NCBI GenBank assembly: GCA_902806275.1 | Contig: CADCVY010000093.1 | Coordinates: 1 to 45,655 of the forward strand | Direction of reading: 5' to 3' | From: an uncultured Sphingomonas sp. | GTDB taxonomy: Bacteria; Pseudomonadota; Alphaproteobacteria; Sphingomonadales; Sphingomonadaceae | DNA length: 45,655 bases | Shown: one piece after another, positions 7,174-31,754 of the stretch | Position numbering within the stretch: position 1 is the stretch's first letter | Layout of the letters: every line of letters starts with the position of its first letter | Made by a program: the position numbers and the translations under genes | Notes under the pieces: model-generated | What the model was told of the DNA's origin: nothing | Seen by the model: the letters and a program-made list of their open reading frames with translations, nothing else | Databases searched by the model: none

Positions 7174-7962
7174 TTAGAGGACGCGGACGTCATCAAGGCC
7201 GAACCGGTCGAGGGCGCCGAGGAGCGTAGCGCGCGGTGGCGCCGTGAAGACGGCGATGCCTAGCGGCAGCTGCGCGGGCCAGGGCTGTTTGCGGGTCAGA
7301 AAGGCGATGCGGCGGGCGATGCCGGCGCCGCCGTCCACATAGGCGACGTCCGGCCAGGCCTCGCGAAGTTCGTCGGCGAGCAGCGGGAAATGGGTGCAGG
7401 CGAGAACCACCGTGTCGATCCTGCTATCGCCGGCAGCGTTGAACATTGGCTGCGCTGCCGCCCGCACATCGGCGACGCTGATGGTGTCCCCGGCCAGCTT
7501 GGCTTCGGCGAGGTCAACCAGATCGGGCGAACCGTGGGGGACGATCGTGCAGTCGGCGGCGAACCGTGAGGCGAGGTCGTCGACATAGGGCTGGCGCACG
7601 GTTGCTTCGGTGCCCAGCACGCCGATGACGCGCGTTCTGGACTGCTCGGCCGCGGGCTTGATGGCTGGCACGGTGCCGACGACCGGCAGATCGAGCGCGG
7701 CTCGCACGTGATCGAGGGCGATCGTCGACGCGGTGTTGCAGGCGATGACCGCGAGCCGAGGGCGAAAGCGCTCCACCAGGCGGCCGAGCAGCGCCGGAAC
7801 GCGGCTGGCAATCTCCGCCTCGCTGCGCTTGCCATAAGGGTATCCGGCACTGTCCGCGGCATAGACAATCGCGGCCCGCGGTAGCAGCGCGCGTGCCGGC
7901 TGCAGCACCGACAGCCCGCCGACACCGGAATCGAAGAACAGGATGGGGGCATCCGCTTGCAA
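7174..7962 (-). CDS. murI: Glutamate racemase
   Basis: A 262-residue cofactor-independent racemase producing D-glutamate for peptidoglycan. The two catalytic cysteines are Cys75 (ACNTAS) and Cys189 (LACTHFPLL). The substrate loop FFDSGVGGLSVL is at residues 9-20. The start is TTG at 7962, with GGAG five to six bases upstream on the minus strand. The nearby ATG is out of frame. Upstream lies a sphingomonad palindromic repeat separating it from plsY on the other strand. It may share readthrough with hemA downstream, 71 bp away. Confidence 0.96.
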   Translation of the reverse strand: MQADAPILFFDSGVGGLSVLQPARALLPRAAIVYAADSAGYPYGKRSEAEIASRVPALLGRLVERFRPRLAVIACNTASTIALDHVRAALDLPVVGTVPAIKPAAEQSRTRVIGVLGTEATVRQPYVDDLASRFAADCTIVPHGSPDLVDLAEAKLAGDTISVADVRAAAQPMFNAAGDSRIDTVVLACTHFPLLADELREAWPDVAYVDGGAGIARRIAFLTRKQPWPAQLPLGIAVFTAPPRATLLGALDRFGLDDVRVL

Positions 7963-7979
7963 ACCAAACTCCGCTCGGG

Positions 7980-8046
7980 CTGAGCTTGTCGAAGCCCTGT
8001 CCTATGGCCCGAAGTAGAGAAAAGGACAGCCCTTCGACAAGCTCAG
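7980..8046. repeat. Inverted pair of sphingomonad CTTCGACAAGCTCAG repeats
   Basis: Two 24-nt arms (7980-8003 and 8023-8046) are inverted copies with two mismatches, around a 19-nt loop. The core is CTTCGACAAGCTCAG. I recall this palindromic unit as very common between genes in sphingomonad chromosomes, similar in behaviour to REP elements. It lies between the divergent genes murI and plsY and could fold into a hairpin. Another lone copy is at 19585-19598. Confidence 0.8.
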
Positions 8047-8097
8047 GGCGAACGGATGTTGGTTGAAGGCGCTCGTGCTTTTGCTACCACGCGCTCG

Positions 8098-12738: not shown

Positions 12739-13481
12739 ACTTCACCGACCCCGAACTAGAGCGGTACGCGCGGCATATCGTGCTGCCGCAGGTCGGCGCC
12801 ATCGGGCAGCGCCGGCTGAAGGCGGCGTCGGTCGCGGTGGTTGGCGCGGGGGGGATCGGCAGCGCCGTTCTTCCCGCGCTCGCGGGCGCCGGTGTCGGGC
12901 GGCTGACGATCATCGACGACGACGTTATCGACGTCGCCAACCTTCACCGCCAACCGCTGTTTCGCGAGCGCGATGTCGGGCACCCCAAGGCCGAGCTAGC
13001 CGGGCAGTTCGTGCAGCGCCTCAACCGGTTCGTCGACGCTCGGCCGCTGCAGGTGCGGATCGACCCGCAGAACGCTGCGGAGCTGCTCGGCGGGCACGAC
13101 CTGGTGATCGACGGCAGTGACAATTTCGCCACGCGGCTGGCGGTGAGCGACGCCTGCGTGGAGCTGGGCACCCCACTGCTCTCGGCCGCTGCGGTGCAAT
13201 TCCAGGGCCAGGTCGCGCTGTTCCGCAGCCGTCCGTGCTACCGCTGCTTCGTCGGTGACGCCTTCGACGCCGACGATTGCGACAATTGCGCGCAGTTGGG
13301 CGTGCTTGGGGCGCTGACGGCGGCGGTTGGCGGGTTTGCAGCCTTGCTCGCCGTCAACACGATCGTCGGCATCGGCGATGACGCCGCTGGCAAGCTCCAC
13401 CTGTTCGATGGTTTGGCACTCAGCTGGCGGCCGATCCGCATTCCGCCTGCCGCGAACTGCAAGGCGTGCGCTTCAGCCTAG
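12735..13481 (+). CDS. moeB: HesA/MoeB/ThiF-family adenylyltransferase
   Basis: A 248-residue E1-like enzyme. It adenylates the C-terminal glycine of a ubiquitin-like sulfur carrier (MoaD or ThiS). The nucleotide loop GAGGIGS is at residues 37-43, with an aspartate-rich strand following (IIDDDVID). Zinc ligands are Cys168/Cys171 (CYRC) and Cys242/Cys245 (CKAC), and a further CDNC pair lies at 182-185. The start is GTG at 12735 in a GTGA overlap with dut. MoeB is favoured by length and by the lack of a rhodanese domain, but ThiF activity cannot be excluded. It converges on coaBC with a 9-nt overlap. Confidence 0.88.
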
Positions 13482-14165
13482 GGCCTGCGCGATGCGGGCT
13501 ACCAGGCGTCGGGCGACCTCCTCCTTGCTCATCTCGGGCCAGTCCTCGACGTCTCCGGTGATCAAGTGGACGCGGTTGCGGGGCCCGCCCATCGCGTCGC
13601 CGGAAACGTCGTTCGCCACGATCCAGTCGGCGCCCTTTCGCCGGCGCTTTTCGACAGCGGCCGCGATGACATTGTCGGTCTCTGCCGCGAAGCCGACAAC
13701 TAGCGTCGGCCTTGAGCTGCTGGCCGACAGCTCGGCAAGGATGTCGCGCGTCGCGGTGAACCGAAGCTGCGGAGGTCCAGCGCTTTTCTTGAGCTTGATA
13801 GAGGAGCGCTCGACGCGCCAGTCAGCGACGGCCGCGACCAGGATTGAGGCGTCTGCAGGGAGCGCGGCGAACACGGCGCCGGCCATCTGCTCGGCTGTCT
13901 CTACATCGATCCGGTCCACGCCTGTGGGGGTTGCCAGCGCCACCGGGCCGGCGACCAGGGTGACGCGCGCGCCTGCTGCCGCCGCCGCCGCCGCGATGGC
14001 GAACCCTTGGCGGCCGGAGGAGCGGTTAGCGATCACCCGGACGGGGTCGATCGGCTCGTGCGTCGGCCCTGCCGTGACCAGGATGTGCTTGCCGCGTAGC
14101 TCCTCCCCGGCCTTTGCCGGGGAGGGGGACCGCTCGAAGAGCGGTGAAGGGGTTCTTTCGCTCAG
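13473..14165 (-). CDS. coaBC: CoaB half of split CoaBC: phosphopantothenate-cysteine ligase
   Basis: This reading frame encodes the CoaB domain, which joins phosphopantothenate and cysteine using CTP. From LRGKHILVTAGPTHEPIDPV it runs on through NRSSGRQG, AVADWR, a KLKK segment and VGFAAET to a normal end. It is in a different frame from the upstream CoaC half because a palindromic element sits between them. No ATG, GTG or TTG is available before the conserved start of the domain. The coordinates given begin at an in-frame CTG (14163-14165), preceded by GGAGGGG and five bases, all within the element. That start is an inference. Without it the half is expressed only by slippage or not at all. 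Confidence 0.7.
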   Translation of the reverse strand: MSERTPSPLFERSPSPAKAGEELRGKHILVTAGPTHEPIDPVRVIANRSSGRQGFAIAAAAAAAGARVTLVAGPVALATPTGVDRIDVETAEQMAGAVFAALPADASILVAAVADWRVERSSIKLKKSAGPPQLRFTATRDILAELSASSSRPTLVVGFAAETDNVIAAAVEKRRRKGADWIVANDVSGDAMGGPRNRVHLITGDVEDWPEMSKEEVARRLVARIAQALG

Positions 14166-14220
14166 GAGAACCCCTCCACGAGCTACGCTGGTCCCCCTCC
14201 CCGCGAAAGCGCGGGGAGGA
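14101..14220. repeat. Palindromic MITE/REP-like element inside coaBC
   Basis: A 119-120 bp element with near-matching terminal inverted repeats of about 30 nt (14101-14131 and 14190-14220). Each arm is itself a hairpin: a perfect 10-bp stem at 14102-14125 and a 9-bp stem at 14196-14219. Two smaller hairpins lie between (CCGCTC/GAGCGG and GGGGTTCT/AGAACCCC). It has no coding capacity of its own. It lies exactly at the joint between the CoaC and CoaB domains. Removing 119 nt reconnects them in one frame (ILNF, one residue, LRGK), which identifies it as an insertion. Confidence 0.85.
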
Positions 14221-14734
14221 TGAAGTTCAGAATGTCCGCCGGCTCCGGCAAGCGGCCGAGACCGTATTCGCGGCAGGCCATCTCGCCTTCCGCAGGCTCG
14301 ATCACCTGGACCCCGTCCGCCCTGAGCTGCGCGACATTGCGCTGCGTTGCGGCGTGCAGCCACATGCGGACGTTCATGGCGGGCGCGACCACCACCGGCT
14401 TGTCGGTCGCCAGCAGCAGCGTCGTCGCGAGATCGTCGGCGATACCTGCAGCCATCTTCGCCAGAAGGTCCGCGGTGGCGGGGCAGACGAGCACGAGGTC
14501 GGCGGCGCGGCTGAGCTGGATGTGGCCGATCTCGACCTCGTCTTTGAGGTCCCACAGCGAGCTATGGACCTGACTTTCCGCCAGCGTGCCGAGGCTCATC
14601 GCGGTGACGAAATGCTCGCCGCTCTTGGTCAGCACGGGCGTGACCTGGTGCCTGCTCTTCTTGAGCAGGCGCACCAGCTCCAGGGACTTGTAGGCAGCGA
14701 TCCCACCGCCGACGATCAGGAGCACCCGGGCCAT
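14183..14734 (-). CDS. coaBC: CoaC half of split CoaBC: phosphopantothenoylcysteine decarboxylase
   Basis: A flavoprotein domain of about 170 residues plus a short element-derived tail. It decarboxylates phosphopantothenoylcysteine to phosphopantetheine in CoA synthesis. The start ATG at 14734 gives MARVLLIVGGGIAAYKSLEL, the usual FMN-binding opening. The PAMNVRMW motif with its conserved Asn, and the lid-type GEMACREYGLGRLPEP with the catalytic Cys region, are both present. The frame then enters the palindromic element and stops at TAG 14183-14185 after SRGGGPA. In most bacteria CoaC and CoaB are fused. Here they are in two frames. It is 10 nt downstream of the DUF885 gene. Confidence 0.85.
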   Translation of the reverse strand: MARVLLIVGGGIAAYKSLELVRLLKKSRHQVTPVLTKSGEHFVTAMSLGTLAESQVHSSLWDLKDEVEIGHIQLSRAADLVLVCPATADLLAKMAAGIADDLATTLLLATDKPVVVAPAMNVRMWLHAATQRNVAQLRADGVQVIEPAEGEMACREYGLGRLPEPADILNFILPALSRGGGPA

Positions 14735-31353: not shown

Positions 31354-31739
31354 GGGCCAGAGGGCCGGGCGGCCGCGTCGGGGAAACTCGCCGAGGAAAG
31401 TCCGGGCTCCATGGAACCACGGTGCCGGGTAACGCCCGGCGAGCGCCGCTTCGGCGGGGCTTAGGGACAGTGCCACAGAAAGCATACCGCCCGTCTTCGG
31501 ACCGGTAAGGTCGAAAGGGTGCGGCAAGAGCGCACCGCGCGGCTGGCAACAGGCGCGGCACGGTAAACCCCACCGGGAGCAAGACCGAATAGGGGTGGCA
31601 CATGGGCCTGGTTCCGGCTCGCCGCCCGGGTTGGTTGCTTGAGCCCTGGTGCAAGCCAGGGCCTAGAGGAATGGCCGCACATCCGCCTTAGCCTCGGTGA
31701 CGGCGGAGGACAGAACCCGGCTTACAGGCCCTCTGGCAT
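31354..31739 (+). ncRNA. rnpB: RNase P RNA
   Basis: Catalytic RNA of RNase P, bacterial type A, processing tRNA 5' ends. The ends pair perfectly over 11 bp to form P1 (GCCAGAGGGCC at 31356-31366 with GGCCCTCTGGC at 31727-31737). The conserved 5' segment GAGGAAAGTCCGGGCTCCA begins at 31393. ACAGAA is at 31475, GGTAAACCCC and GGAGCAAGACC follow in the middle, and the 3' conserved ACAGAACCCGGCTTACA is at 31710-31726. Ends are estimated from P1, so transcript ends may differ by several bases. It is followed by an inverted repeat at 31755-31819. A TATGGC element just upstream at 31344-31349 could be its -10. Confidence 0.97.
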
Positions 31740-31754
31740 ATCGTTTAACCGCAG

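Follow-up and report, generated by a model that had tools for sequence, protein, structure and literature searches.

The window, the whole 45,655-nt stretch of DNA analysed here, belongs to a draft MAG of an uncultured Sphingomonas sp. in 114 contigs that is 72.5% complete. On its minus strand it carries both domains of the bifunctional CoaBC profile TIGR00521, placed on two different frames (Table 1). The CoaC half scores 187.2 bits and the CoaB half 193.9 bits, each alone below the cut-off of 219.7. As the matched profile parts, 5-178 and 181-391, flank it, a 120-bp palindromic repeat sits between the two domains. Its outer arms are 31 nt each and 87% complementary, the two sides of its inner stem are 13 nt each and 92% complementary, and its predicted RNA fold has a free energy of -87.1 kcal/mol (z -8.05), with 0/200 shuffles equally stable. 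The initial annotation had described an element of 119-120 bp with inverted ends of about 30 nt between CoaC and CoaB, and had placed the CoaC stop at a TAG inside it; both descriptions hold, as do the positions it gave for GGAGGGG, the CTG and the G5 run. Rfam recognized no known RNA family at the repeat, its sole match in the window being a full-length bacterial class A RNase P RNA (31357-31740).

Table 1. Features of the coaC-coaB junction in the window. Coordinates are those of the forward strand.
Feature	Position	Strand	Basis or remark
coaC (phosphopantothenoylcysteine decarboxylase half)	14183..14734	-	183 aa; TIGR00521 profile 5-178, E 4.8e-55
coaB (phosphopantothenate-cysteine ligase half), conserved part	13473..14099	-	TIGR00521 profile 181-391, E 4.3e-57
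First codon (Leu) of the conserved part of coaB	14097..14099	-	
Stop codon (TGA) of coaB	13473..13475	-	
Palindromic dispersed repeat, 120 bp	14101..14220	.	arms, RNA fold, genome matches
Outer arm, CoaB side	14101..14131	.	
Outer arm, CoaC side	14190..14220	.	
Inner stem, CoaB side	14144..14156	.	
Inner stem, CoaC side, holding GGAGGGG	14167..14179	.	
CoaC stop TAG, inside the repeat	14183..14185	-	sequence read by eye
GGAGGGG, Shine-Dalgarno-like, within the conserved inner stem	14171..14177	-	
CTG in the apical loop, CoaB frame, 17 nt past the TAG	14163..14165	-	
GAG codon homologous to the CoaB GTG/TTG start of 22 other split genomes	14103..14105	-	repeat's terminal arm
G5 run	14193..14197	-	

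The CoaC and CoaB frames of the window differ by 2 mod 3. From the CoaC stop to the conserved start of CoaB, the CTG is the only ATG, GTG, TTG or CTG in the CoaB frame. CoaB does lie in another frame, as initially annotated; the accompanying statement that no ATG, GTG or TTG precedes its conserved start is true only downstream of the CoaC stop, since the CoaB frame is open upstream through coaC as far as a GTG at 14555. With equal codon frequencies assumed, 27 random codons would lack ATG, GTG and TTG altogether with a probability of about 0.27, so the absence of a canonical start is not improbable.

Used as a query against its own genome, the repeat gave 44 match rows on both strands at E up to 1. 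Seventeen places were extracted from the source genome, of which 10 were near full length, and shorter matches were excluded. The element at the junction is thus a dispersed palindromic repeat. Pairwise identity among the ten near-full-length copies is 75-94% on the same strand. The copies have in common their outer hairpins, a further hairpin resembling GACCAGCGAAGCTGGT and a variable loop closed by a GTGGAGGGGTTCT / AGAACCCCTCCAC stem, and in most of them the G5 run belongs to the repeat. In the nine copies compared, the termini resemble TCCTCCCC..GGGGAGGA; candidate target-site duplications in these copies were not consistent (one of 4 bp, four of 2 bp, four with none). Compared by eye, the junction copy has GCGTAGC, which contains the TAG, at a place where GCGAAGC or a similar sequence stands in most full-length copies. 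Exact GGAGGGG occurs in 17/20 oriented near-full-length copies. A canonical start is found 3-10 nt past the stem motif in 7/19 oriented copies and a CTG in 2/19, so the proposed start of GGAGGGG and CTG is not distinctive. GGAGGGG lies in the conserved inner stem and the CTG in the variable loop; there is therefore no sign that either was selected at the junction, and judging from the copies the pair is what the repeat gives by default.

By type of element, the repeat is similar to two known groups. Like the MITEs and REP-type palindromes described in PMC10969869, it is small, present in many copies, bounded by terminal inverted repeats and mostly structured DNA; nine copies yield no consistent target-site duplication. 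The Rickettsia palindromic elements (RPE) treated in the same review are likewise short (~100-150 bp) palindromic repeats dispersed over many genomic places; they form several families, and some are located inside protein genes of core metabolism. Linker inserts of fused relatives, described below, are in frame as RPE are. In contrast, the insert in the window is out of frame (offset 2, with the CoaC stop inside it) and interrupts a protein, whereas an RPE extends one. The bacteria are different, and the likeness is one of form and dispersal.

We surveyed the state of coaBC across the genus by profile search. Of 71 genomes, 67 matched TIGR00521, and one weak match was dropped to leave 66 usable coaBC (excluded rows: G005, G072, G078 and G085, which gave no match; G082, which gave just a weak one; and G079b, a piece of CoaC). 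The gene pair is fused in 43/66 and split in 23/66. G079a was counted as fused, its contig beginning inside coaC and one open frame running over profile positions 42-391. Outside the genus but within the same order, 15/16 genomes have a full-length match above the cut-off and 1/16 has no match, indicating that fused coaBC is ancestral.

The 23 split genomes form one branch, and the window is nested within it. The split state is a single change on each tree (SH-aLRT: CoaC only 98, CoaB only 95, both 99). On the tree of four neighbouring genes, topA+ubiB+dut+thiF, which took in 62/66 rows and was built with the careful method, the split branch has support of 100/100 (bootstrap/SH-aLRT). The smallest starred set around the window holds 23 members in the careful tree; clades of 12 and 21 rows were starred in the quick tree only. 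In the quick tree, fused G042 is the sister of the split clade. Gene order was also compared: thiF-dut-topA lie in an inverted order in the window, in fused G042 and in 12 split genomes, and in the other order wherever else these genes were found. The CoaC of the window is 90% identical to that of split G063 and at most 82% identical to those of fused genomes.

CoaB of the 22 other split genomes invariably starts 6 nt ahead of the conserved Leu codon, and none of the 22 carries the element. The start codon is GTG in 21/22 and TTG in 1/22 (G077), and in 21/22 the TGA of CoaC overlaps the CoaB start in frame, giving a 4-nt NTGA overlap. The cultured split species Sphingomonas hankyongi has the GTGA form. 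It should also be noted that coaC of G010 (L066, L085) shows an apparent 1-nt shift upstream of the CoaB start, perhaps a sequencing error. An offset of 2 mod 3 between the frames is shared by the whole split clade and so provides no evidence of a recent frame break in the window.

As the window is nested in the split clade and the 22 others are split without the element, fission preceded the repeat. We consider it very probable that the pair was split first and that the repeat later overwrote the overlap. This is the reverse of the initial annotation, in which the insertion itself split a bifunctional enzyme. The arithmetic behind that model is correct, deletion of 119 nt restoring one frame, and its fused ancestor stands at the deeper level of the order (15/16) and genus (43/66); for the window's own clade, already split, it does not. 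Absence of the element from close relatives had been put forward as a check, and it is indeed absent, yet those relatives are split too. Insertion as the cause of fission is contradicted by the trees, and we give that model almost no credence.

Bifunctional CoaBC is reported for the vast majority of prokaryotes in PMC7794376, and it has the same two enzyme domains as the split CoaC and CoaB of this clade. The streptococcal CoaB and CoaC (TIGR02113/TIGR02114) are also separate chains with these two domains. The sphingomonad split proteins are instead of the bacterial CoaBC type, TIGR00521 scoring far above coaB_strep, which gives the CoaB half of the window 40.9 bits. Beyond the genus set, the best 80 matches among named coaBC loci comprise 74 fused loci, 3 of the GTGA form, 2 split with ATG and 1 with a run of N (L215), which we did not treat as a fission. 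The three GTGA loci may duplicate genomes of the genus set, and we left them out of its count. The two loci split with an ATG start near the stop (L170 and L188, from Sphingomonas sp. QA11 and S. asaccharolytica) appear to stand apart from the genus clade, suggesting that sphingomonads probably underwent coaBC fission on more than one occasion. Among the same 80 best-matching loci, 11 have an in-frame CoaC-CoaB linker of 423-591 nt, several of them in Erythrobacter-type genera (L156, L162, L166, L168, L171, L172, L175, L176, L178, L190 and L192). A search of the open-licence literature, weak evidence in itself, found nothing on coaBC fission or on palindromic inserts in sphingomonad coaBC.

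coaBC is usually viewed as essential. Its depletion has been reported to be bactericidal in PMC7794376. In the window, CoaB departs from the genus at 1/66 otherwise invariant columns, and 20/66 genomes are as bad or worse. NG86 dN/dS is 0.13-0.19 for pairs that include the window's CoaB and 0.12-0.23 for other pairs. Decay of CoaB was rejected as a candidate, with neither measure showing any sign of it and the frame open over its full length. In CoaC, the window reads ACRE (around 14270), whereas 65/65 other genus rows have Gly after Cys (ACGE-type); we take this site to be close to the flexible active-site flap. The end branches of the window's coaBC are longer than the median, 0.11 compared to 0.054 for CoaC and 0.21 compared to 0.13 for CoaB. 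Together, the ACRE change and the long end branches make some relaxation of constraint possible. The age of the insertion cannot be read from intact conservation.

These data bear on whether CoaB is made from this copy at all. The window could carry a recent null allele, compensated by precursor uptake or by another copy that the incomplete assembly lacks. The ACRE change, the lack of a canonical CoaB start and the ~28% of the genome that is missing are all compatible with such an allele. However, the CoaB frame is open and as conserved as in relatives, and a second convincing coaBC occurs in none of the 66 genus genomes: the extra rows are pieces on two contigs in G079 and a weak 19.5-bit match in G055. 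A second coaBC, which the initial annotation had also proposed to look for, was not found in the 72.5%-complete source assembly. We regard a null allele as improbable; CoaB remains conserved and probably continues to be produced as its own polypeptide.

A base or assembly error is a rival of greater weight. Under this explanation the true junction would differ by at least one base within the repeat, leaving an ordinary CoaB start or agreeing frames. The genome is a draft MAG, the site would be error-prone as a hairpin that contains G runs and recurs in similar form at many other places, and the window is alone among the 23 split genomes of the genus in lacking a canonical start at the homologous codon. 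The quality of the rest of the window speaks against an error: of 30 ORFs scanned (8 without a match), 21/22 Pfam-matching ORFs cover most of their profile, and the exception, a DUF885 ORF, aligns nearly full length with relatives in 10 other genomes. A chimeric join is unlikely, both flanks being the expected halves of one gene pair. We judge an error to be less likely than not, yet a serious rival.

If the junction is correct as read, how could CoaB be started? The overlap of coaC and coaB in relatives resembles the overlapping stop/start pairs with termination-reinitiation described in PMC10666635. The window has lost this overlap: the homologous start codon is GAG, and 17 nt separate the TAG from the only NTG-type codon. 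For E. coli, the same paper gives a 40-80% drop in re-initiation at +14 nt and almost none at +38 nt. Furthermore, PMC11497404 reports that initiation on CUG by the initiator tRNA is inefficient. Combined, these two reports suggest weak use of the CTG at best, and the Shine-Dalgarno-like sequence is enclosed in a 13-bp stem and, like the CTG, is not distinctive among copies. The loop region without the 5' part of the inner stem folds weakly (-7.8 kcal/mol, z -0.65), so a ribosome terminating at the TAG could open the inner stem. Overall, use of the CTG as the CoaB start is doubtful. Bypassing of the element by the ribosome, or initiation at an ATC or CTA close to the conserved start, would be further candidates.

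Slippage of the ribosome by -1 at the G5 run would instead yield a fusion of CoaC and CoaB. The frames are related by -1, and the G5 run is followed by strong structure, as programmed -1 frameshifting would require. However, the zero frame GGA GGG GGA is by inspection a poor slippery site, in which we infer that the P-site tRNA would re-pair with AGG; the G5 run is common to most copies of the repeat and so is not specific, and the split clade does without a fusion. We consider a slip very unlikely.

We also compared the CoaC-CoaB linkers of the genus. Linkers of fused members are mostly 69-81 nt. Strong folds (z <= -3) were found in 8/43 fused linkers (G073, G079a, G045, G019, G084, G016, G060, G050), and all eight are open in frame. 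Ten other long fused linkers do not reach z -3 (G051, G057, G008, G009, G004, G042, G044, G080, G020, G074). Linker-to-linker comparison gave three mutually dissimilar groups: the window with G073 and G074, and weakly G080 and G020; G016, G019, G045 and G060; and G009, G050 and G044, with G051. A match between the G016 and G050 linkers falls in the CoaC-coding end. The linkers of G020, G080 and G084 had seemed by eye to hold the window's repeat family. The searches gave this assignment no support: a G073 query had no match at 1e-6 in any of the three genomes, and compared with the window's linker, those of G020 and G080 matched weakly (2e-5) and that of G084 did not match.

Own-genome match rows, which take in the linker itself and both strands, number 25 for G073 and 6 for G074; 15, 25 and 6 for G016, G045 and G060; and 29 for G050 and 3 for G079. 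Searches for dispersed copies gave no match in G020, G080, G084, G083 or G008, and a second linker query gave none in the window's genome. Each of the three palindromic insert families is thus dispersed in at least one host genome, and for this reason repeats seem to have replaced the old CoaC-CoaB linker several times, much like RPE in proteins. A broader claim, that several unrelated palindrome families repeatedly overwrite this linker in the genus and that in the window's lineage the repeat supplies both the CoaC stop and a CUG start for CoaB, is decidedly tentative. A further palindrome of the window (7962-8064; GCTTGTCGAAG-type, 42-nt arms, 83%) occupies the gap between two ORFs, one racemase-like and the other plsY-like. 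By eye it resembles the insert of the G008 coaBC linker; a G050 query did not match the G008 linker.

The reading that we favor, at a probability of roughly 0.5 as a whole, starts from a fission of coaC-coaB in the ancestor of the 23-genome clade, before the arrival of the repeat. A MITE-like 120-bp repeat would then have landed at the already split junction and taken the place of the CoaC stop and the CoaB start that overlapped there. CoaC would terminate at the TAG inside the repeat, and the terminating ribosome would open the inner hairpin. Translation of CoaB as a second chain would most likely depend on weak, coupled re-initiation at some non-canonical codon, for which the CTG is the only NTG-type candidate. 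Within this reading, the dispersed repeat, the prior fission, the lost overlap and the conserved CoaB are observed, while the production of CoaB and the way it is started are predicted.

If CoaB is made, a coenzyme A gene remains in use here even though its translation signals have given way to a selfish-looking repeat, and the junction would be a test of bacterial tolerance for non-canonical starts. Palindromic elements in frame within proteins, best known from Rickettsia, appear to recur at one linker in free-living sphingomonads, where the inserts come from at least three dissimilar families. The split clade itself is a natural set of 23 genomes, some from cultured members, with CoaC and CoaB on separate chains.
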